DNA of 64,000 nt from positions 1 to 64,000 of the forward strand of contig CACYLW010000007.1 of NCBI GenBank assembly GCA_902775345.1, given 5' to 3'. Made by a program: the position numbers and the translations under genes. The notes beneath the pieces are model-generated. The model was given only the letters and a program-made list of their open reading frames with translations, had not been told where the DNA came from and made no database searches. This document shows positions 17,393 through 30,057 of the stretch, one piece after another (positions within the stretch are counted from its first letter, which is position 1; every line of letters starts with the position of its first letter). This DNA is from an uncultured Eubacteriales bacterium. Lineage in GTDB: Bacteria > Bacillota > Clostridia > Peptostreptococcales > Anaerovoracaceae.

Positions 17393-18097
17393 ATGGCAAT
17401 CAAATACAAAAGAGTCCTTATAAAAGTAAGCGGAGAAGCGCTTGCAGGCGATGACCGCTTCGGAGTCAACGACGCTGAGCTCGGAAAGGTAGCTGCGCAG
17501 ATCAGGGAGATCCGTGATGCGGGAGTCGAAGTAGCAGTAGTTGTAGGCGGAGGAAACTTCTTCCGCGGACGTACGGGAGGCAACATAGATAAGCCTACCG
17601 CAGACTACATGGGCATGCTCGCGACTGTCATGAACGGACTTGCCCTTCAGGATGCACTTCTTTCTGCCGGATGCCCGGCCAAGCTCATGACAGCTATCGA
17701 GATCAGAGACATGGCAGAGGGATACGCCAGACGCAAGGCTCTTGATTACCTCGAAGAAGGAAAGGTCGTTGTTTTCGGAGGAGGCACGGGAAGCCCGTTC
17801 TTCACCACGGATACTACAGCTGCACTGAGAGCTGCAGAGATAGGAGCGGATGTACTGCTCCTTGCAAAGAACATCGACGCGGTGTACTCGGCAGACCCTA
17901 AGCAGGATCCTGACGCGGAACGCTTCACAGAGCTTTCATACATGGACATCATCGATAAAAATCTCAAGGTCATGGATCTTACAGCGGCAACGCTGTGCAA
18001 GGATACACAGACCAAGATATATGTGTTTGCTCTCAAGGAAGAGGGCAATCTCATGAAGGTTATCAACGGCGAAAATGTCGGAACACTCATACAGTAG
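17393..18097 (+). CDS. pyrH: UMP kinase
   Basis: 234 residues of the amino-acid-kinase fold, converting UMP to UDP. K-V-S-G-E-A-L-A-G near the N-terminus, V-V-G-G-G-N-F-F-R-G, G-G-T-G-S-P-F-F-T-T-D-T and D-G-V-Y-type (D-A-V-Y-S-A-D-P) motifs match bacterial PyrH. The usual Firmicutes order pyrH-frr-uppS-cdsA is kept; tsf and rpsB, often just upstream, are replaced by thrS. GGAGG lies 8 bp before ATG. Confidence 0.97.
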   Translation: MAIKYKRVLIKVSGEALAGDDRFGVNDAELGKVAAQIREIRDAGVEVAVVVGGGNFFRGRTGGNIDKPTADYMGMLATVMNGLALQDALLSAGCPAKLMTAIEIRDMAEGYARRKALDYLEEGKVVVFGGGTGSPFFTTDTTAALRAAEIGADVLLLAKNIDAVYSADPKQDPDAERFTELSYMDIIDKNLKVMDLTAATLCKDTQTKIYVFALKEEGNLMKVINGENVGTLIQ

Positions 18098-18107
18098 GAG
18101 GCATATC

Positions 18108-18656
18108 ATGGCAAAGAAATCACTCGACGAGAGAATAGAAGGCGCTAAGAACTACCTTAAAGAAAACCTTAACACCGTAAGAGCCGGCAGAGCCAATCCG
18201 GCGCTTCTTGACAGGATCATGGTGAACTATTACGGATCACCTACACCTCTCAAGGCACTGGCCAACATTTCGGTGCCTGATCCGAGAACGCTGATGATCT
18301 CGCCGTTCGACCCTAAGTCGGTAGGAGACATCGAGAGAGCGATCCTGGAAGCCAACATCGGCATCAACCCTACGAACGACGGCAAGGTGATCAGACTGGC
18401 TATCCCTCAGCTCACAGAGGAGAGACGTAAAGAGCTCACTAAGGTCGTAAAGAACTACGGAGAAGAGGCTAAGGTGGCTGTAAGAAACCTGAGACGTGAC
18501 GTGAATGATGAGCTCAAGAAGGCTGAGAAAGCCGGAGAACTCACAGAGGACGATCTCAAGAAGGAACTCGAAGATACACAGAAGGTCATCGAGAAGGCGA
18601 TCAAGGACATTGATGCTATTATAGGCGACAAAGAGAAAGAACTCATGGAAGTCTGA
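18108..18656 (+). CDS. frr: Ribosome recycling factor
   Basis: 182 residues, typical. It acts with EF-G to split post-termination ribosomes. L-N-T-V-R-A-G-R-A-N-P-A-L-L, the P-D-P-R-T-L hinge strand and the C-terminal long helix are recognisable. ATG 18108 is preceded by TAGGAGG at 18095-18101; in-frame upstream codons overlap pyrH and lack a site. It starts 10 bp after the pyrH stop. Confidence 0.97.
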   Translation: MAKKSLDERIEGAKNYLKENLNTVRAGRANPALLDRIMVNYYGSPTPLKALANISVPDPRTLMISPFDPKSVGDIERAILEANIGINPTNDGKVIRLAIPQLTEERRKELTKVVKNYGEEAKVAVRNLRRDVNDELKKAEKAGELTEDDLKKELEDTQKVIEKAIKDIDAIIGDKEKELMEV

Positions 18657-18678
18657 TTCATTTTAAATGATGACTTGC

Positions 18679-18699
18679 GGCGTGGCTTTATGCCACGCC
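18679..18699 (+). other. Stem-loop between frr and uppS
   Basis: A perfect eight-pair stem (GGCGTGGC/GCCACGCC) around TTTAT, without a T run. It ends 17 bases before the chosen uppS start and could shape its translation or act as a processing site. Confidence 0.5.
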
Positions 18700-18716
18700 T
18701 GCTGTTTGTAAAAGAT

Positions 18717-19451
18717 ATGGAAAAGAGACCTATACCTACTCATATTGGAATAATAATGGACGGCAACGGCAGATGGGCAAAGGCTCACGGCGTGCCGCGC
18801 GTAATGGGGCACAATGCCGGGATGCAGTCGATGAAAAAGATCGTCATTGCATCGTCCAACCTGGGCATTAAGTACCTGACAGTCTACGCATTTTCTACCG
18901 AGAACTGGAAACGCAGCACCGAAGAGGTGAGTGGCATTTTCAACCTTATTGTCAAGTACGTGAATTCTGAGCTCGAGGAACTCGACGAGAACAACGTGCA
19001 TATCAATATCTTCGGGCAGTATGACATGCTGCCTAAAGCTTCGGTCGACGCCATCAATAAAATGGTGGGCAGACTTGAGAAAAACGACGGACTCATCTTC
19101 AACATCGCGCTGAATTACGGCGGAAGAGACGAGATCCTGAGAAGTGTAAAGGCACTTACTGCTGAATGCATCGAGCAGGGCAGGGATCCTCAGGAACTCA
19201 CGGAAGATGACATCTCAAGGTTCCTCTACTCGGGAAGCGCTCATTTCAACGTGCCTGATCCTGATCTCATCATCAGGACCAGCGGAGAAGAGCGTATGTC
19301 CAACTTCCTCACATGGCAGGGAGCATACAGTGAGCTGATGTTCACCGACACTCTCTGGCCGGACTTCACTCCTGAGGAATATGCTGAGATGATAAATGCT
19401 TACGCGAACCGTGACAGAAGATTCGGCGGACGCAAGGAGAAGGACAAATGA
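18717..19451 (+). CDS. uppS: Undecaprenyl diphosphate synthase (cis-prenyltransferase)
   Basis: 244 residues. It builds the C55 lipid carrier for cell-wall synthesis from farnesyl and isopentenyl diphosphates. The catalytic I-I-M-D-G-N-G-R-W-A motif, G-H-x-A-G, Y-A-F-S-T-E-N-W and D-L-I-I-R-T-S-G-E-x-R are present. ATG 18717 puts the catalytic motif near residue 13 as in relatives. In-frame starts at 18675 and 18690 fall inside the hairpin and are less likely. No strong ribosome site. Overlaps cdsA by 4 bp (ATGA). Confidence 0.95.
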   Translation: MEKRPIPTHIGIIMDGNGRWAKAHGVPRVMGHNAGMQSMKKIVIASSNLGIKYLTVYAFSTENWKRSTEEVSGIFNLIVKYVNSELEELDENNVHINIFGQYDMLPKASVDAINKMVGRLEKNDGLIFNIALNYGGRDEILRSVKALTAECIEQGRDPQELTEDDISRFLYSGSAHFNVPDPDLIIRTSGEERMSNFLTWQGAYSELMFTDTLWPDFTPEEYAEMINAYANRDRRFGGRKEKDK

Positions 19452-20275
19452 AAACAAGGATAATTTCGGGATTAGTAATGGCGCCGCTTCTGATCGTTCT
19501 GTATCTGGGCGGCTGGTTCCTGTGGGCTGCTGCGCTGCTGATAGCCATAATGGGACTCCAGGAATTCTATAAGGGATGGAACAATCTGGACGTACAACCG
19601 TCAAAGGAGATCGGCTACGTAATGACCGTACTGCTGTTTGTAACGGCGATACCGTTTGGCGGCAGGGAAGGAAGCGCCGTACCGCAGTTCTATGAGAACA
19701 TGGTGTTCATATGCATATGGATGTTCATAGCTGTTGCGGCCGGCATGATATACGGATGGAAGATCGACAGGCGCGGAACATATGATGCGGCGGCTACTGT
19801 AGCGGGTCTTGTTTACATACCTTTCTTTACATACCATATGGTGCTGATCGACATGACCGAATACAGCCTCTTCATCTGGATAGTCGTCATAGCGGCTTTC
19901 GGATCGGATATCTTTGCGTATTTCACGGGATACTTCCTCGGAAAACACAAGATGGCTCCGAATCTCAGCCCTAAAAAGACCATAGAAGGCGCTGTGGGAG
20001 GCCTTATCGGAAGCTCTCTGCTGGCGTGGCTCTTCGGGTTCATATTCATGAGAGACATGGCTCTCGTATGCCTTGTCCTCGGACTGGTAGGAGGAGCTGC
20101 CGGCATGGCAGGAGACCTTACGGCTTCGATGTTCAAGCGCAAAATGGGTATCAAGGACTACGGAACACTCATACCGGGTCACGGCGGGATCATGGACAGA
20201 TTCGACAGTGTCGTTTTCGTAGCACCGGTCGTATACTACGCGATCTGCGCCCTGACGGGTATTCTGAACGTATAA
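19448..20275 (+). CDS. cdsA: Phosphatidate cytidylyltransferase
   Basis: 275-residue polytopic membrane enzyme making CDP-diacylglycerol from phosphatidate and CTP. About seven or eight hydrophobic segments are visible. The CDS signature S-M-F-K-R-x4-K-D-Y-G-x-L-I-P-G-H-G-G-I-M-D-R-F-D sits near the C-terminus. Coupled to uppS by ATGA. dxr, which often follows cdsA in Firmicutes, is missing here and rseP comes next. Confidence 0.96.
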   Translation: MKTRIISGLVMAPLLIVLYLGGWFLWAAALLIAIMGLQEFYKGWNNLDVQPSKEIGYVMTVLLFVTAIPFGGREGSAVPQFYENMVFICIWMFIAVAAGMIYGWKIDRRGTYDAAATVAGLVYIPFFTYHMVLIDMTEYSLFIWIVVIAAFGSDIFAYFTGYFLGKHKMAPNLSPKKTIEGAVGGLIGSSLLAWLFGFIFMRDMALVCLVLGLVGGAAGMAGDLTASMFKRKMGIKDYGTLIPGHGGIMDRFDSVVFVAPVVYYAICALTGILNV

Positions 20276-20289
20276 GGAGATAAGAGATA

Positions 20290-21297
20290 GTGAAAACAGC
20301 GATCCTGTTTGTGGTGATGCTGCTCGTGCTGGTTATTCCTCATGAGTGGGGCCACATGACCGTCGCAAGATGGTGCGGAGTAAAAATCAAGGAATTCTCA
20401 GTGGGCATGGGCCCGCTGATTTTCAAGAAGCAGAAGGGCGATACACAGTATTCATTAAGGCTGCTTCCTCTCGGAGGTTTCTGTGCAATGGAAGGCGAAG
20501 AGGAGAGCATAGACAGCCCGACTTCATACTCGAGCAAAACCAATCCGCAGAAGATAGCGATACTGCTTGCCGGAGTAACGATGAATATCATCATCGCTGT
20601 GCTTGCGGTGACTGTTTCTCTCTGCATCTCAGGCGTTGTAACGAATTCCCTGGATTCTGTAGTTGCCGGGTCACCGGCAGAAAAAGCAGGCCTCAGGGCA
20701 GGAGATACCATCATTGCCATCAACGGAGAGAAAACCGGTACATGGGAGAGAGTCGTCGAAGAGATAAGCTCATATAAAGAAGGAGAGACTCTCGAGATAA
20801 CATACAGACGCGGAAATGAGACAGGCACGGCATCAGTGGTTCCTGAGTACAGCGAAGAGACAAAAAGCTACATGATCGGAATTGCAGCTTCTGTCTCCAG
20901 GGATTTCCTGAAGTGCGCAAGGCTGGGACCTGTCACTACATGGGAACTCAACAAGGCTCTGATAGAGGGCTTCAAAATGATCTTCACCGGACATGTCGGC
21001 AGGGACGATGTCGCCGGGCCGGTGGGCCTTGTGAAGATAGTGGATACGGCTGCTGACTACGGTATCGCGCCTTACCTCATGCTTCTGGCCATCGTCAGCC
21101 TGAATCTCGCGATCTTCAATCTCATCCCGATACCGGGGCTCGATGGAGGAAAGATATTCTTCATCCTGCTCAAGATCATCTCAGGCGGAAGGATAAACGA
21201 TGAAATGGAGTATAAAGCTACAGTCGTTGGAATGATCGTCCTGCTGACGCTGTTCGCTCTGATTACTTTTAATGATGTAATGAACCTTTTCGGTTAA
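20290..21297 (+). CDS. rseP: RseP-type site-2 intramembrane metalloprotease
   Basis: 335 residues. It cleaves membrane-bound regulators such as anti-sigma factors within the bilayer. The first membrane helix carries the zinc motif H-E-W-G-H, a single PDZ domain spans about residues 115-190 (A-G-L-R-A-G-D-T-I), and the third ligand is in the L-D-G-G motif near the C-terminus. GTG start at 20290 with AAGGAGA 9 bp upstream. Position between cdsA and ispG is standard. No sigma/anti-sigma pair is nearby, so the substrate is unknown. Confidence 0.94.
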   Translation: MKTAILFVVMLLVLVIPHEWGHMTVARWCGVKIKEFSVGMGPLIFKKQKGDTQYSLRLLPLGGFCAMEGEEESIDSPTSYSSKTNPQKIAILLAGVTMNIIIAVLAVTVSLCISGVVTNSLDSVVAGSPAEKAGLRAGDTIIAINGEKTGTWERVVEEISSYKEGETLEITYRRGNETGTASVVPEYSEETKSYMIGIAASVSRDFLKCARLGPVTTWELNKALIEGFKMIFTGHVGRDDVAGPVGLVKIVDTAADYGIAPYLMLLAIVSLNLAIFNLIPIPGLDGGKIFFILLKIISGGRINDEMEYKATVVGMIVLLTLFALITFNDVMNLFG

Positions 21298-21307
21298 AGG
21301 AGACGGA

Positions 21308-22387
21308 ATGTCAAGAATGGTCCATTGCGGCGATGTTGCCATCGGAGGCGGCGCGCCGGTATCCATACAGTCAATGACGAATGTCGATACCAGAGACACT
21401 GATGCCCTGGTCAGACAGATCAGCGAGCTCGCTGAAGCGGGCTGCCAGATCGTAAGGTGCGCAATACCCGACATGGAGGCTGCGGAATCTTTCGGGCGTG
21501 CAAAAAAACTCGTAAGAGTGCCTCTGGTAGCTGACATACACTTCGATTACAGGCTGGCCATAGCATCGATCGATGCAGGAGCCGACAAGATCCGCATCAA
21601 CCCGGGAAACATCGGCAGTGTTGACAGGGTAAAGGCAGTCGTCGACAAGGCAAAAGAACACGATATCCCTATCAGAGTGGGAGTCAATTCGGGTTCGCTC
21701 CAGAAAGACCTGATCGAAAAATACGGCGGGGTCACTGCAGACGCTCTTGCGGAGAGCGGTGCCAGCATGCTGAAGTACATAGAAGATCTCGGATATGACA
21801 AGCTGGTCGTATCGATCAAGTCTTCGAATGTCCGCATGAACTACGATGCACACCTTAAGCTGAAAGAACTCACGGATGCTCCTATACACATAGGTATCAC
21901 GGAATCGGGCACTCCGCGCAACGGAGAACTCAAATCGGCCATCGGCATAGGAGCACTCCTTCTTGCGGGTATAGGAGATACCATGAGGGTATCGCTTACG
22001 GATGATCCTGTGAAGGAGGTCCTGTTCGCAAGGCGCATACTCGAGACAGCAGGGCTGAGAGAGAAGGCGATAGACGTTGTCTCGTGTCCTACGTGCGGAA
22101 GAACGGAGATCGATCTCATCGGTCTTGCGAACGAGGCAGAGGAGAGACTGATGCCTATCGCTCAGAAGCGTGCTGATGCAGGCCTCAGACCCCTTAAGAT
22201 CGCTGTCATGGGATGCGCAGTCAACGGTCCAGGAGAGAGCCGCGAAGCTGACTACGGCATCGCCGGAGGAAAAGGCGAAGGTCTCGTGTTCAGCCACGGC
22301 GTCATACTCGAAAAAACAGATGAAAACAGGCTGGTAGACAGGCTCATAGAACTTGTTGAGGCTGACAGTGAACAGAAGGCAAAATGA
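21308..22387 (+). CDS. ispG: 4-hydroxy-3-methylbut-2-enyl diphosphate synthase
   Basis: 359 residues. The penultimate MEP-pathway enzyme, with an N-terminal TIM barrel (H-C-G-D-V-A-I-G-G-G-A-P-V-S-I-Q-S-M) and C-terminal 4Fe-4S domain with cysteines in S-C-P-T-C-G-R and G-C-A-V-N-G-P-G-E. Oxygen-sensitive, consistent with an anaerobe. Overlaps polC by 4 bp. The window shows no other MEP genes. Confidence 0.97.
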   Translation: MSRMVHCGDVAIGGGAPVSIQSMTNVDTRDTDALVRQISELAEAGCQIVRCAIPDMEAAESFGRAKKLVRVPLVADIHFDYRLAIASIDAGADKIRINPGNIGSVDRVKAVVDKAKEHDIPIRVGVNSGSLQKDLIEKYGGVTADALAESGASMLKYIEDLGYDKLVVSIKSSNVRMNYDAHLKLKELTDAPIHIGITESGTPRNGELKSAIGIGALLLAGIGDTMRVSLTDDPVKEVLFARRILETAGLREKAIDVVSCPTCGRTEIDLIGLANEAEERLMPIAQKRADAGLRPLKIAVMGCAVNGPGESREADYGIAGGKGEGLVFSHGVILEKTDENRLVDRLIELVEADSEQKAK

Positions 22388-25300
22388 TAAAAATCTCTGA
22401 AGACATTCTGACTGCCGACGAGCTTAAAGAGGCAAGCGGCAGGGACATCAGGGACATAGATATAGAGATCACCAATGTGGCTGTGTCCAGGATGAACGGG
22501 GGTACGAGCGTGGCGCTGAACATCGACGCCAAGCTCAATTTTGTGATGCCGAAAAAGACCGAGAATCTCATGAAAAAGAGGATTGCGGCCAGAATAGCTT
22601 CAGCGGAGAGGGTGAGATTCAACTATACATATACCGGCGTTATGATCCCGAAGAGAACTGCGCCGGAGGAGAATTACCAGGCTCCTTCGAACGGAAACGG
22701 ACGCCAGTACAGACAGAACAGGAAAGACAGGCCGGCGTTCACAAACGCGGACGGCGAGCTTGTTCTTCTCGGTGATGACTTCAAAGGCGATCCGGTCCTC
22801 TACGGAGTGCTTGACGGTTATGTCGGCAGCAAGGAAAAGCCGGTGATCGAAGGCGAGGTCTTCAGCATCGAGTCGATGCCTATCAAGAGCGGCAGACAGC
22901 TCATAACCATACTCATCGCATCTGAGGTGAGGACGTTCGGCCTCAAGGCATTTATCTCAGAAGAAAAACTCAAGGAGATCCAGGAGAACCTGTCTGCGGG
23001 AGACATGATAAGGGCCCGCGGAAGCATAGAGTACGATACCTATGAGCATCAGAACATGATGATGGTGAACTCCATCAGAAAGATCGAAAAAAAGCTGAAG
23101 GAAGATACTTATCCTAACGGCCGCAGAGTGGAACTGCACTGCCACACCAAGATGAGCGACAACGACGGATTCAACGAGGTCAAGGACATCGTGAAGAAAG
23201 CCGCTTACTGGGGGCAGCCGGCTGTTGCCATCACAGACCACGGTGTAGTGCAGGCGTTCCCTGACGCAGCCAAGGAGGCATCAAAGCAGGCCAAGGCCGG
23301 AAGAAACATAAAGATAATCTACGGAGTCGAGGGCTATCTGTATCCTGACGAGGACGCGACCGCTCCTGACGGCACCATTGATATAAAGAAGAACCGTACT
23401 TATCACATAATAATCCTCGCGAAGAATCAGACGGGATTAAAGAATATCTACAAGCTCGTCAGCACTTCGCACATCGATTATTTCTATAAGCGTCCGAGGA
23501 TACCGCGCTCGGTCCTGCAGGCCCACAGGGAGGGACTCATACTGGGCACCGCCTGCGAGGCGGGAGAGCTGTATCAGGCTGTCGTAAGAGGCGCAAGTGA
23601 CGATGAACTCGACAGGATTGCTTCCTTTTATGACTATATGGAGATACAGCCGCTCGGCAATAACCGCTTCATGATCGAAGACGGGATAGCAAAGGGCGAT
23701 GAAGATCTTATCGCGAACAATCTGAGGATCATTGCGACTGCCGACAGACTCGGCAAGATGACCGTCGCGACTACAGACTCCCATTATCCGACGCAGGAGG
23801 CATCGATATACCGCAATATCATCATGTCGGGCATCGGCTTCAGGGACACTCCATCCGATTCGCTTTATCTCAGAACGACTGACGAGATGATGAAGGAATT
23901 CGAATATCTCGGAGATAGGGCAGAGGAGATCGTCGTTACCAATACAAACAGGATCGCCGATATGGTCGAGGATGTGCTTCCTGTACCGAAGGGCAAATTC
24001 CCGCCTAAGATCGAAGGAGCAGAAGAAAAACTCAGGGAAAGCTGCTATGAAAAGGCAAAGTCGATATACGGAGATCCGCTGCCTCCTGAGATAGAGGAGC
24101 GGCTCGAGACCGAACTGAGCTCGATCATAGGCAACGGATATGCCGTGATGTACATAGCTGCTCAGATGCTGGTCCATAAATCCAATGAGGATGGATATCT
24201 GGTAGGATCGAGAGGATCGGTAGGATCATCGTTTGCCGCCACGATGGCCGGTATAACGGAGGTCAATCCGCTCGCTCCTCACTACATCTGTCCGGAGTGC
24301 AAGCACTTCGAGTGGTCGGACGAACCGGGCAAATATGATGTAGGCTACGACATGCCGGAGAAGGCATGCCCTGAGTGCGGCGCACGCATGAACAAAGAAG
24401 GTCTCAACATACCGTTCGCGACCTTCCTTGGATTCAAGGGCGATAAGGAGCCTGATATAGACCTGAACTTTGCCGGCGAGTATCAGCCGGTCGCGCACAG
24501 ATACGTAGGGGAGATATTCGGCGAGAAGAACGTATATAAGGCAGGAACGGTAGCTACCATTGCAGACAAGACTGCCTTCGGATACGTAAAACATTACGTC
24601 GAGGAAAATCACATAAACGCTAACAAATATGACATAGATTATCTTGTAAAGGGCTGCACGGGAGTCAAGAGGACGACCGGCCAGCATCCGGGCGGCATAA
24701 TCGTCGTTCCGGATGACCATGAGATCTATGAGTTCTGCCCGATACAGAAACCTGCCAACAAGCGCGACACCGATGTCATCACCACGCATTTCGATTACCA
24801 TAAGATCGATGAGAACCTTCTTAAGCTCGACATACTCGGACACGATGTGCCGCAGCTCATAAGGCACCTTCAGGTAATGACCGGAGTCGATCCCATGAAG
24901 ATCCCGCTCGACGACAGGGAGACTCTGAGCATATTCACTTCGCTCGACGCTCTGAAGATAAAGAATGAGAACTACAGGTTCACTCATGGCACGTACGCGA
25001 TACCTGAATTCGGCACCAACTTTACCCGCGCCATGCTCGATGACATACATCCGACCACGGTATCCGCGCTGATCAAGATGTCGGGATTCTCTCACGGCAC
25101 CGATGTATGGACAAACAACGCGCAGGAGCTTCTCAGAAAAGGCACTGCTACCATAGATGAGGTCATCTCATGCCGTGACGATATAATGAACTTCCTAATC
25201 AAAAAAGGCCTTCCGAACGGCGACGCGTTCAAGATCATGGAGATCGTAAGAAAGAACCGCGTGCTGAGCGAAGACCAGCTCAATATGATGAAGGATCACG

Positions 25301-25878
25301 GCGTGCCTGACTGGTACATATGGTCGTGCGAGACCCTGAAGTACATGTTCCCGCGCGCTCACGCCGCTGCCTATGTAATGATGTCGATCAGAATGGCGTG
25401 GTTCAAGGTGAACTATCCTGAAGCATTCTATGCCGCCTGGTTTACCTCAAAGGTGGATAATTTCGATGCCGACATAATCGGACTCGGGATCCCGGGCGTC
25501 GAGAAGAGGATGGATGAGATAGAAAAACTCGGAAATACCGCTACTGCGAAGCAGAAGGAACAGCTGACGGTTTACGAAGTCATGTACGAAGCGCTTTCGA
25601 GAGGCATGAGCTTCGCGGAACCTGTGCTCGGTGTAGCTGAGCCTTGCAGGTTCTCCGTTGTAGAAGGAAAGATAATGCTGCCGTTCAACGCGGTCAGCGG
25701 AATAGGCGATACGGCTGCCGAGTCGCTCGCGGCGGCATATTCGGAGAAGCCGTTCAACACTCTCGATGATGTGAAGTCGAGAACAAAGCTTACGGGCACC
25801 AACATAGATGACCTGAAAAAGCACGGACTTTTCAGCGGACTTCCTGATTCTGCGCAGATAAGCATATTCGACCTTTAG
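22384..25878 (+). CDS. polC: DNA polymerase III PolC-type, lacking the exonuclease domain
   Basis: The replicative polymerase alpha subunit of Firmicutes, here only 1164 residues versus about 1430-1460. Order: N-terminal domains, OB fold (about 150-240), PHP domain (H-C-H-T-K-M-S near 256), then directly the rest of PHP and the polymerase core, with zinc ribbon (C-P-E-C ... C-P-E-C), catalytic D-I-D-L-N-F and second catalytic F-D-Y-H-K segments. In normal PolC a DnaQ-like 3'-5' exonuclease with F-D-x-E-T-T-G is inserted in PHP; here G-V-E-G-Y-L-Y-P-D (about 315) passes straight to H-I-I-I-L-A-K-N-Q-T-G-L-K-N. The frame is intact. The C-terminal Q-I-S-I-F is a clamp-binding motif. Proofreading must come from another protein. 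Confidence 0.96.
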   Translation: MIKISEDILTADELKEASGRDIRDIDIEITNVAVSRMNGGTSVALNIDAKLNFVMPKKTENLMKKRIAARIASAERVRFNYTYTGVMIPKRTAPEENYQAPSNGNGRQYRQNRKDRPAFTNADGELVLLGDDFKGDPVLYGVLDGYVGSKEKPVIEGEVFSIESMPIKSGRQLITILIASEVRTFGLKAFISEEKLKEIQENLSAGDMIRARGSIEYDTYEHQNMMMVNSIRKIEKKLKEDTYPNGRRVELHCHTKMSDNDGFNEVKDIVKKAAYWGQPAVAITDHGVVQAFPDAAKEASKQAKAGRNIKIIYGVEGYLYPDEDATAPDGTIDIKKNRTYHIIILAKNQTGLKNIYKLVSTSHIDYFYKRPRIPRSVLQAHREGLILGTACEAGELYQAVVRGASDDELDRIASFYDYMEIQPLGNNRFMIEDGIAKGDEDLIANNLRIIATADRLGKMTVATTDSHYPTQEASIYRNIIMSGIGFRDTPSDSLYLRTTDEMMKEFEYLGDRAEEIVVTNTNRIADMVEDVLPVPKGKFPPKIEGAEEKLRESCYEKAKSIYGDPLPPEIEERLETELSSIIGNGYAVMYIAAQMLVHKSNEDGYLVGSRGSVGSSFAATMAGITEVNPLAPHYICPECKHFEWSDEPGKYDVGYDMPEKACPECGARMNKEGLNIPFATFLGFKGDKEPDIDLNFAGEYQPVAHRYVGEIFGEKNVYKAGTVATIADKTAFGYVKHYVEENHINANKYDIDYLVKGCTGVKRTTGQHPGGIIVVPDDHEIYEFCPIQKPANKRDTDVITTHFDYHKIDENLLKLDILGHDVPQLIRHLQVMTGVDPMKIPLDDRETLSIFTSLDALKIKNENYRFTHGTYAIPEFGTNFTRAMLDDIHPTTVSALIKMSGFSHGTDVWTNNAQELLRKGTATIDEVISCRDDIMNFLIKKGLPNGDAFKIMEIVRKNRVLSEDQLNMMKDHGVPDWYIWSCETLKYMFPRAHAAAYVMMSIRMAWFKVNYPEAFYAAWFTSKVDNFDADIIGLGIPGVEKRMDEIEKLGNTATAKQKEQLTVYEVMYEALSRGMSFAEPVLGVAEPCRFSVVEGKIMLPFNAVSGIGDTAAESLAAAYSEKPFNTLDDVKSRTKLTGTNIDDLKKHGLFSGLPDSAQISIFDL

Positions 25879-27431: not shown

Positions 27432-27743
27432 ATGACAGAAAACGACTACATGATAAAGGATCTGGGCGAGGAGGAACTACTCGAGCTCGCGGAACTTTTC
27501 AAGATGTTCGCAGACTCGACGCGCATCAAGATTCTCTACGATCTCTTCGACGGTGAAAAGAACGTCAGCGAGATATGTGAAGACATCGAGATGAACCAGT
27601 CCGCCGTATCGCATCAGTTAAAGGCCCTTAAAACAGGAAAACTGATCAAGAGCCGCCGCGAGGGAAAGGCGATATATTATTCCCTTGACGACGACCATGT
27701 AAAGACCATCATAGAGATGGGCAAGGAACACATCGAAGAATAA
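27432..27743 (+). CDS. ArsR/SmtB family zinc-type metalloregulator
   Basis: A 103-residue winged-helix repressor. The core F-A-D-S-T-R-I-K-I-L and recognition region N-Q-S-A-V-S-H-Q-L-K-A-L are typical. The C-terminal alpha-5 helix has Asp87, His89, His100 and Glu103 with exactly SmtB spacing (D-x-H-x10-H-x2-E), predicting zinc sensing. The cadmium/lead alpha-3 Cys-x-Cys motif is not present (one Cys49 only). It sits after its own 40-bp palindromic operator and before HMA and ATPase genes, so it should repress the operon until zinc is high. AAAGGA stands before ATG. Confidence 0.93.
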   Translation: MTENDYMIKDLGEEELLELAELFKMFADSTRIKILYDLFDGEKNVSEICEDIEMNQSAVSHQLKALKTGKLIKSRREGKAIYYSLDDDHVKTIIEMGKEHIEE

Positions 27744-27761
27744 CAAAAGGAGAACAGAAAA

Positions 27762-27980
27762 ATGAAAAAGAAATTCAAACTGATCGATCTCGACTGCGCA
27801 AACTGTGCTGCAAAGATGGAAGAAGCAATTAAGAAAATCGACGGAGTCACAGACGCTTCGGTGAGCTTCATGACTCAGAAGATGATGATCGAGGCAGATG
27901 ATGCCGTATTCGATAAAGTCGTTGAAGAGGCGGTAAAGTGCATCGCAAAGGTTGAGCCTGACTGTCAGGTAGTTCTTTAA
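27762..27980 (+). CDS. Stand-alone heavy-metal-associated (HMA) domain protein
   Basis: 72 residues, one ferredoxin-like HMA fold with metal motif L-D-C-A-N-C-A-A-K (Cys12, Cys15). D-C-A-N-C is the version common in zinc/cadmium ATPase N-terminal domains. The neighbouring ATPase lacks this domain, so it appears to be a split-off module acting in trans as metal donor or sensor. AAAGGAG before ATG; 18 bp after the regulator gene. Confidence 0.92.
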   Translation: MKKKFKLIDLDCANCAAKMEEAIKKIDGVTDASVSFMTQKMMIEADDAVFDKVVEEAVKCIAKVEPDCQVVL

Positions 27981-28080
27981 AATAATACGGCGATGCCCGT
28001 ATAGCCTTTCGAAACGATAAGGCTCCCGCCTCGCCGCGGAGCAGTTTCATCAGACAATACTGACATCGCAGAATAAAAAA

Positions 28081-30057
28081 ATGGACAGATTTACGAAAAA
28101 ACAGAAAAAAGAATTAAAAAGCATATTGATATCACTGGTCATTTTCGTGGTGCTGATGATAGTGGAGCATCTTGTGCTCCCTTCTGCAGGCTTAAGCGAT
28201 GGGCCTGAGAGTGCTCCTCCACAGCCTGTCCTGATAGCAGGCATAATAGTGGACATCCTTTATCTGGTGCCATATTTCATAGTAGGCAAAGATGTTCTGC
28301 GCAAGTGCCTCATAGGCATAAAGAACAGGCAGCTCTTTGATGAAAGCTTTCTCATGACTCTTGCTACCATAGGAGCGTTCGGATGCGGGGAATTCGGTGA
28401 AGCAGTTGCCGTAATGCTGTTCTATCAGGTAGGAGAGTTCTTCCAGGAATATGCTGTAGGCAAGTCCAGAGGATCCATCGCGGACCTCATGAGCATGGCG
28501 CCTGACTTCGCTAACCGTGAAGCTGAAGACGGCAGCGTTGAAGTCATAGATCCTGACGACATAGAGGTTGGAGACATACTGGTCATCAAACCCGGCGAAA
28601 AGGTCCCTACAGACGGTGTCGTTATTGAAGGAAGCAGCCTGGTGAATACTTCGGCACTTACCGGTGAATCGCTCCCAAGACTCGTGAGCAAGGGAGAGCA
28701 GGTCATATCCGGATGCATAAACGGCGATACGCTGCTCAGGATAAGGGCCGAGAAGGAATTCGACGACTGTACGGTATCCCAGATACTCGAACTCGTGGAA
28801 GACGCATCGTCGCGTAAGTCGGTAACAGAAAACTTCATCACGAGGTTCGCGCATTATTATACTCCGGCTGTAGTTATCGCAGCGGTCATACTTGCATTTG
28901 TGCCTCCGCTGATCTCCGGACATTTTGCCGCCGAATTCGGCGAGTGGGTGCTCAGGGCATGCACCTTCCTGGTAATATCATGTCCATGCGCGCTTGTGAT
29001 CTCCGTGCCGCTGGCATTCTTCGGCGGCATAGGAGCGGCATCCTCCAAAGGAGTTCTTGTAAAGGGATCAAATTACCTGGAGCTGCTTGCAGGCCTCGAT
29101 ACGGTCGTGTCCGACAAGACCGGTACGCTTACTGAAGGCAGATTCAGAGTGGCCATGGTGGAAGCCGCGGAAGGCTACGATACTGATGCGATAATCAGAT
29201 ACGCTGCTGCGGCAGAGACCGGATCGACGCATCCTATCGCGGCTGCAATAACAGAAGCCTGTGAAAAGCCGGTGGCACAGTCGAAAATAAAGGACGTGAG
29301 GAACACGGCGGGCAAGGGAATTACCGCGAAAGCCGGCCGTGATACCATAGCCGTCGGCAACAGAAACTTTTTCGATGAAGAGGGAATAGAGCTGCCGGAA
29401 CTTGCTGCTGATGTCATCGGAACGAACTGCTATGTCGCAAAAAACGGCAAATATATCGGCACTATCATAGTTGCAGACATGCCTAAGAAGGGCGCTGAAG
29501 AAGCGATAAGAGAGATGCTGAAAGAAGGCGTCAGGTCGGTCATAATGCTGACCGGTGATTCTGAGAAAGTCGCTTCGGCTGTAGCTTCCGGGCTTGGCAT
29601 AACAGATTACAGAGCGGAACTTCTTCCTCAGGATAAAGTGAGAGTCGTTGAAGAACTGCTGAACGGTCTCAGAGAGAAAACCGGTGCGGGAGAGAAAGCT
29701 GATAAAAAGAGGGGAAGACTCGCGTTCATAGGGGACGGAATAAATGACGCTCCTGTGCTTTCTGTATCTGACGTGGGTATCGCCATGGGTTCACTGGGAT
29801 CAGATGCCGCCATAGAGGCCGCGGATGTCGTGATAATGGATGATGACCTCGGAAAGATACCGGCCGTCATGAGGATCGCCCGCAAGACGCTCGGCATATC
29901 GAAGCAGAACATAGTTTTCGCGCTTCTGGTCAAGTTCAGCTGCCTCATACTGGGAGCTCTCGGAATAGCCAACATGTGGGCGGCTGTATTTGCGGATGTC
30001 GGAGTAGCGGTTATCTGCATACTGAATTCGATGCGCATGCTGAACAGGCAGAAATAA
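28081..30057 (+). CDS. P1B-type ATPase, Zn/Cd/Pb exporter type
   Basis: 658 residues. Membrane pump that exports divalent metal using ATP. Features: no N-terminal metal domain; membrane helices from about residue 15; actuator T-G-E-S; metal motif S-C-P-C-A-L (Cys301, Cys303); phosphorylated Asp345 in D-K-T-G-T; nucleotide-binding H-P; G-D-G-I-N-D-A-P hinge. The CPC motif and SmtB-type regulator point to Zn/Cd rather than Cu. The ribosome site is poor and there is a 100-bp gap after the HMA gene without a terminator. Ends at the 30132 terminator. Confidence 0.94.
   Translation: MDRFTKKQKKELKSILISLVIFVVLMIVEHLVLPSAGLSDGPESAPPQPVLIAGIIVDILYLVPYFIVGKDVLRKCLIGIKNRQLFDESFLMTLATIGAFGCGEFGEAVAVMLFYQVGEFFQEYAVGKSRGSIADLMSMAPDFANREAEDGSVEVIDPDDIEVGDILVIKPGEKVPTDGVVIEGSSLVNTSALTGESLPRLVSKGEQVISGCINGDTLLRIRAEKEFDDCTVSQILELVEDASSRKSVTENFITRFAHYYTPAVVIAAVILAFVPPLISGHFAAEFGEWVLRACTFLVISCPCALVISVPLAFFGGIGAASSKGVLVKGSNYLELLAGLDTVVSDKTGTLTEGRFRVAMVEAAEGYDTDAIIRYAAAAETGSTHPIAAAITEACEKPVAQSKIKDVRNTAGKGITAKAGRDTIAVGNRNFFDEEGIELPELAADVIGTNCYVAKNGKYIGTIIVADMPKKGAEEAIREMLKEGVRSVIMLTGDSEKVASAVASGLGITDYRAELLPQDKVRVVEELLNGLREKTGAGEKADKKRGRLAFIGDGINDAPVLSVSDVGIAMGSLGSDAAIEAADVVIMDDDLGKIPAVMRIARKTLGISKQNIVFALLVKFSCLILGALGIANMWAAVFADVGVAVICILNSMRMLNRQK

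Follow-up and report, generated by a model that had tools for sequence, protein, structure and literature searches.

Does a replicative polymerase that has lost its built-in exonuclease still proofread, and if so, with what? This question is raised by the polC gene in a stretch of 64,000 nucleotides (the window; contig CACYLW010000007.1 of assembly GCA_902775345.1) from an uncultured Eubacteriales bacterium of the Anaerovoracaceae. The gene encodes a PolC-type DNA polymerase III alpha subunit without the DnaQ-type exonuclease (Exo) domain, the absence of which had been pointed out in an initial annotation made from the sequence alone. Related bacteria seem to have lost this domain several times, while the PHP domain into which it is inserted in other PolC retains a complete metal site. 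The features on which the argument rests are the following.

22384..25878, + strand: polC, Exo-less PolC-type DNA polymerase III alpha subunit, 1164 aa (open frame, PolC models, alignment with structure 3f2b)
23131..23331, + strand: PHP domain before the Exo site, residues 250-316, with ligands H252, H254, D261, H286 and E316 (Pfam PHP match over 250-416, ligand alignment)
23332..23403, + strand: short loop, residues 317-340, at the position of the Exo domain in other PolC (junction alignment; PMC5636811)
23404..23793, + strand: PHP domain after the Exo site, residues 341-470, with ligands H341, C391, D465 and H467 (Pfam PHP, ligand alignment)

The frame is open over its full length, and its product passed both PolC equivalog models (NF001688 with 1375 bits at a cut-off of 873, TIGR01405 with 1291 bits at a cut-off of 1043), the best stretch of each match beginning at residue 332, past the insert site. 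As insert length we took the stretch separating the YGxEG-like from the HxxxLAxN-like PHP segments, which in the window PolC runs from Y313 to H341 (Y counted, H excluded) and amounts to 28 residues. Among 116 aligned PolC this length was bimodal, with 16-42 residues in 101 sequences, 212-220 in 15 and none between, and the FD[ILV]ET and HRAxxD motifs were found in all 15 long inserts. The 116 sequences derive from 139 loci, two of which (L070, L074) held no PolC and 21 of which were dropped before counting, namely a DnaE (L002), eight shorter duplicates (L071-L073, L075-L079) and 12 broken or contig-end loci (L089, L117, L130-L139). No hidden DnaQ-type motif came to light elsewhere in the protein: neither RNase_T nor another DnaQ-type family occurs among its 10 Pfam matches at E up to 1, and none of its 22 NCBIfam matches is of DnaQ type, the nuclease names there belonging to PHP-domain families. 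Every one of the 35 close named relatives has the short form (record titles Mogibacterium sp., Clostridiales, Clostridia or Candidatus Crickella; 71-93% identity), with matches spanning query residues 1-1164. Because these sequences come from separate records of metagenome-assembled genomes, the assembly collapse at about 23,330-23,400 that the initial annotation had named as a possible refutation is excluded; the genome is indeed an incomplete assembly (2.25 Mb in 26 contigs, 90.5% complete), yet we assign a collapse or mis-annotation only a negligible probability. Searching this genome with the window PolC returned two matches, polC itself and one DnaE-type polymerase, so that no other polC was found. 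Thus, the whole DnaQ-type insert is cleanly gone from the PHP loop of the organism's sole polC, as had been proposed, and its relatives have the same deletion.

The loci dropped as broken gave some observations of their own. In four genomes (G019, G022, G026, G033) PolC is split into pieces that stop at contig ends and are therefore probably products of assembly breaks. Within single contigs, two PolC frames lie 10 bases apart in G017 (L132; break near query residue 515), and L117 (G095, contig 1, a 99% complete genome) has PolC in two frames with a break near query residue 941; these two may be frameshifts, sequencing errors or real breaks.

That standard PolC always carries Exo, as the initial annotation assumed, does not hold. 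Exo-less PolC were reported in 2013 by Timinskas et al. (PMC3919608), where they make up 6% of PolC sequences, are confined to Clostridia and Negativicutes save one extra copy in Thermotogae, and are counted as PolC; Table 2 of that study lists for the PolC + DnaE1 system an 'internal exonuclease domain (except in 16%)'. The window PolC fits this variant, lacking the Exo insertion in PHP and belonging to the same broad group of bacteria. The published exo-less PolC are paired with DnaE1, and the single DnaE of our genome, a putative DnaE1, has features given there for that class, namely a complete PHP site and the clamp motif QISLF. Exo-less PolC is hence already known in kind; what we add is a count of losses, the lack of DnaQ-type matches in the genome, the completeness of the PHP sites and the selection on the gene, and the excerpts of the 2013 text at hand hold no count of independent losses, no survey of other DnaQ proteins and no treatment of this gut lineage.

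Is the loss confined to this lineage? Among 119 genomes that the tool places in the window's family, 12 have an Exo-bearing PolC, 76 were counted as exo-less (two of them stopping short of the junction and one not fetched) and 31 have no PolC match. Across a sample of the whole class, a PHP query is matched without interruption in at least 43 of 291 genomes, from 13 families (the match in G301 spanning residues 2-202 of 241), and Exo-bearing PolC occur in some of the same families (f1, f31, f67). The PHP match of G200 is split although its PolC is exo-less, and other exo-less genomes may therefore be hidden; at the Exo site, this PolC (L216) carries a 61-residue low-complexity linker rich in Ala, Ser and Lys in place of the short loop.

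We counted losses on quick trees of the core that follows the Exo site (LG+G4, with only Shimodaira-Hasegawa-like approximate likelihood ratio (SH-aLRT) support). With 142 of 144 aligned rows, eight trait changes are needed, six of them forced by well-supported branches. Omitting L214 (G222) for its very long branch leaves 141 rows and nine changes, and if Exo was never regained, 11 losses, or seven when branches with support under 95 are collapsed. Given no regain, the Exo insert was thus lost 7-11 times on this tree. For the window's own family, a tree of 89 rows (the 116 minus 27 near-copies) shows two losses, and a single one was not rejected (approximately unbiased (AU) test, p = 0.358), so that the overall total could be one lower; for this family we therefore claim one or two losses. 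The sequence omitted from the count, in one of the 43 genomes (f21), is an odd short PolC-like copy of 756 aa (L252:9225-11495, - strand, contig 2; branch length 1.44) without N-terminal, OB, Exo and C-terminal regions and with all nine PHP ligands. Its gene is flanked by housekeeping-like genes and by a cluster that we take to encode a metallo-beta-lactamase-like protein and regulator-like proteins.

What could proofread in place of the lost domain? The nine-residue metal site of the PHP domain (HHDHEHCDH) is complete in the window PolC and corresponds to the signature HHDHEH[C/H]DH used for 'active' PHP (PMC12926913). All nine ligands are present in 100 of the 101 exo-less rows, the exception (L063) being truncated, and, in a wider set, in 94 of 95 such rows, again with one truncated exception and with L216 counted as exo-less from its linker. 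The partner DnaE of the genome also has all nine, as do the 27 DnaE that cover the site (two of 29 are truncated). Such completeness is not universal, the ligands being decayed in most DnaE3 and in a fraction of PolC (PMC12926913); in the PolC + DnaE3 pair of the B. subtilis type, which likewise has two C-family replicases, the PHP sites are often inactive. The closest system with a measured activity is DnaE1 of Mycobacterium tuberculosis (Mtb), which proofreads without DnaQ by a trinuclear zinc PHP site of nine residues (five His, three Asp/Glu, one Cys; PMC5636811). The site of the window PolC has the same composition, with the difference that it belongs to a PolC-type enzyme and that its activity is a prediction. 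The same study locates the Exo insertion of PolC in a PHP loop whose counterpart in Mtb DnaE1 borders a groove leading to the PHP site; exonuclease activity was lowered in most loop or hairpin mutants examined there. The gap between E316 and H341 of the window PolC measures 24 residues and the corresponding gap in the genome's own DnaE (E65-H86) 20.

We propose that the PolC from whose PHP loop the Exo insert was removed has kept its replicase role beside a DnaE1-type polymerase, and that mismatched primer ends are probably removed by the PHP trinuclear-zinc exonuclease of PolC, of the partner DnaE1, or of both. With the PHP site complete in both PolC and DnaE1 of these Clostridia, the DnaQ insert would have been redundant and hence repeatedly lost; its removal leaves a short DnaE-like loop next to the site and, more speculatively, might open a path for the primer there. 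A complete zinc-exonuclease site in PolC itself is an option that the initial annotation had not considered, and the one best supported here. Judged from sequence comparison, we regard a takeover of proofreading by the PHP zinc exonuclease, as a whole, as fairly probable. The chances are about even, in our estimate, for the broader proposition that in a large part of Clostridia PolC and DnaE1 proofread solely by PHP zinc exonucleases, the DnaQ-type domain, commonly regarded as the hallmark of PolC, having been discarded some 7-11 times as its task can pass to a PHP proofreader within one and the same chain, and some of these genomes having no DnaQ-type exonuclease at all.

This explanation presupposes that the exo-less PolC is still in use, for which further parts of the protein are informative.

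22384..22818, + strand: N-terminal region of about 145 aa preceding the OB domain (alignment starts)
22843..23088, + strand: OB domain, about residues 154-235 (weak Pfam match below cut-off, 3f2b alignment)
24289..24381, + strand: Cys4 zinc ribbon, C636, C639, C662 and C665 (sequence, weak zinc-ribbon matches below cut-off)
24454..24462, + strand: polymerase aspartates D691 and D693 (invariant in 116 of 116 aligned PolC)
24829..24831, + strand: third polymerase aspartate D816 (invariant in 116 of 116 aligned PolC)
25651..25842, + strand: helix-hairpin-helix region, residues 1090-1153 (Pfam HHH_6, 33.5 bits, cut-off 25.6)
25855..25869, + strand: sliding-clamp binding motif QISIF, residues 1158-1162 (sequence, comparison with consensus)

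The three aspartates are presumably the catalytic residues of the polymerase. Of the domain order typical of PolC (NTD-OB-PHP-Pol3-HhH, followed by a C-terminal clamp motif), the PHP, Pol3 and helix-hairpin-helix domains score above their Pfam cut-offs; the zinc-ribbon cysteines are unchanged in 12 aligned relatives, and the QISIF at the C-terminus resembles the consensus QL[S/D]LF (PMC3919608). The OB region is matched weakly by Pfam tRNA_anti-codon (residues 155-232, E = 0.086, below cut-off) and lies within the alignment with the best-matching solved structure, that of Geobacillus PolC (3f2b), an alignment that covers residues 146-1162 in a single stretch. That protein is engineered: its Exo was removed by man, for crystallisation (PMC12592400), its N-terminal domain is gone too, and at one PHP ligand position it has N where the window PolC has D. 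The N-terminal region of the window PolC and its nearest relatives is about 55-170 aa shorter than in many other PolC of the family.

Selection on the gene is strong. In nine of ten PolC pairs chosen from the 35 relatives (one was not computable), the ratio of nonsynonymous to synonymous substitution rates (dN/dS, Nei-Gojobori NG86) was 0.029-0.072 at a saturated dS of 1.2-2.4, and the Yang-Nielsen YN00 method gave 0.021-0.027 in four of the ten. Relative to DnaE, the median PolC distance was 1.00 for 66 exo-less pairs, 1.24 for 28 Exo-bearing and 1.15 for 96 mixed pairs from 20 genomes. Hence, purifying selection on exo-less PolC is strong, its divergence relative to DnaE does not outpace that of Exo-bearing PolC, and nothing points to decay. 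As the catalytic residues and the clamp motif are also intact, we infer that PolC probably remains a replicase beside the DnaE1-type polymerase. An S. aureus PolC engineered to lack both its N-terminal and its Exo domain polymerises rapidly (kpol 330 per s; PMC3656037), so that loss of Exo need not cost polymerase activity, with the reservation that this deletion is man-made and includes the N-terminal domain.

Several points weigh against a takeover by PHP. Exo-bearing PolC keep the nine ligands equally well (14 of 15 rows in the 116-row set, 48 of 49 in the wider set, where the exception, the Sporosarcina row L038, shares with 3f2b an N in place of D at one position). The site may therefore be structural, and its conservation alone is no proof that PHP replaced Exo; complete sites with and without Exo indicate that it was always available, which does not by itself establish a new use, and we accordingly do not use this conservation as a contrast. 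Searches of the open literature yielded no report of a PolC, naturally exo-less or otherwise, with PHP exonuclease activity, and Geobacillus PolC, in which one PHP ligand is changed, shows none (PMC5636811). Furthermore, the genome pairs behind the distance ratios share ancestry and are hence non-independent, and among 51 exo-less genomes that are at least 90% complete, 13 have a clear stand-alone RNase_T match and two a weak one.

This last count bears on whether a separate DnaQ-type exonuclease proofreads in trans, one of the two solutions that the initial annotation had offered, the other being tolerance of a higher mutation rate. The window's genome holds no candidate: the RNase_T (DEDDh) profile gave no match at E 0.001 or even at E = 10, thresholds at which 10 and 13 of 14 control genomes were matched, and the DEDDy (Pol I type) profile gave none either (controls 8 of 14). 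At this completeness of 90.5%, the genome is unlikely to supply a DnaQ in trans, and the same searches speak against a transfer of Exo to another gene. A genome of the same genus (G082, 99% complete) also lacks RNase_T matches even at E = 10, as do 36 of the 51 exo-less genomes. In favour of a DnaQ in trans are the 13 of 51 exo-less genomes with a clear stand-alone RNase_T match and the matches in 8 of the 10 genomes without PolC that are at least 90% complete (Fisher p = 0.002 for 13 of 51 against 8 of 10, with genomes treated as independent of ancestry). We consider a DnaQ in trans improbable as the general solution. About equally improbable, to us, is that these bacteria have no efficient replicative proofreading and rely on polymerase selectivity and mismatch repair. 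Two MutS-type matches in the genome and the repeated loss of Exo would agree with such a reliance, yet nothing would then keep the PHP ligands from decaying, and they are complete in every exo-less row that covers them; this objection would lose force if the ligands were needed for structure only.

Somewhat more plausible, but still unlikely, is that DnaE1 performs the bulk of accurate replication and that the exo-less PolC is auxiliary or dispensable and on its way to being lost. A role of DnaE1 as possible main replicase has been raised for bacteria with PolC and DnaE1 (PMC3919608), and the 31 family genomes without PolC match have a DnaE-type match at best; ten of them are at least 90% complete, of which one (G014) lacks DnaE as well and may simply be incomplete. 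Against an auxiliary PolC stand the low dN/dS and the unaccelerated divergence, the invariant catalytic residues and the wide spread of the exo-less state in the family. Moreover, in a DnaE tree seven of nine genomes without PolC group in a supported clade separate from the exo-less genomes, and the other two sit on long branches elsewhere. Some genera of the family (e.g. G037/G112, G038/G113, G046/G117) show no PolC, their DnaE alone being present and complete at its PHP site. In another genome without PolC (G063, contig 12, 115714-119109, L191) a second DnaE copy contains two internal stop codons.

If PHP proofreads for PolC, as we favour, these lineages would be natural experiments on a replicase that swapped its proofreader, and their mutation rates, on which the loss may have had an effect, would be a direct test. 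The open literature, outside which most subscription papers fall, yielded experiments on engineered but none on naturally exo-less PolC, and in 2013 no bacterium with PolC and DnaE1 appeared to have been characterised experimentally (PMC3919608). The question bears on which polymerase copies the genome in such bacteria and on PolC as a drug target in anaerobes.

The surroundings of the gene are as follows.

17393..22387, + strand: upstream neighbours pyrH, frr, uppS, cdsA, rseP and ispG (NCBIfam scan)

In this group polC is usually found in such surroundings; cdsA scored below the cut-off of its NCBIfam model. Farther downstream in the window (27432-30057), 3' of a butyrate kinase gene, a cadmium/zinc-type P-type ATPase adjoins a small regulator, which we assume to be ArsR-like.
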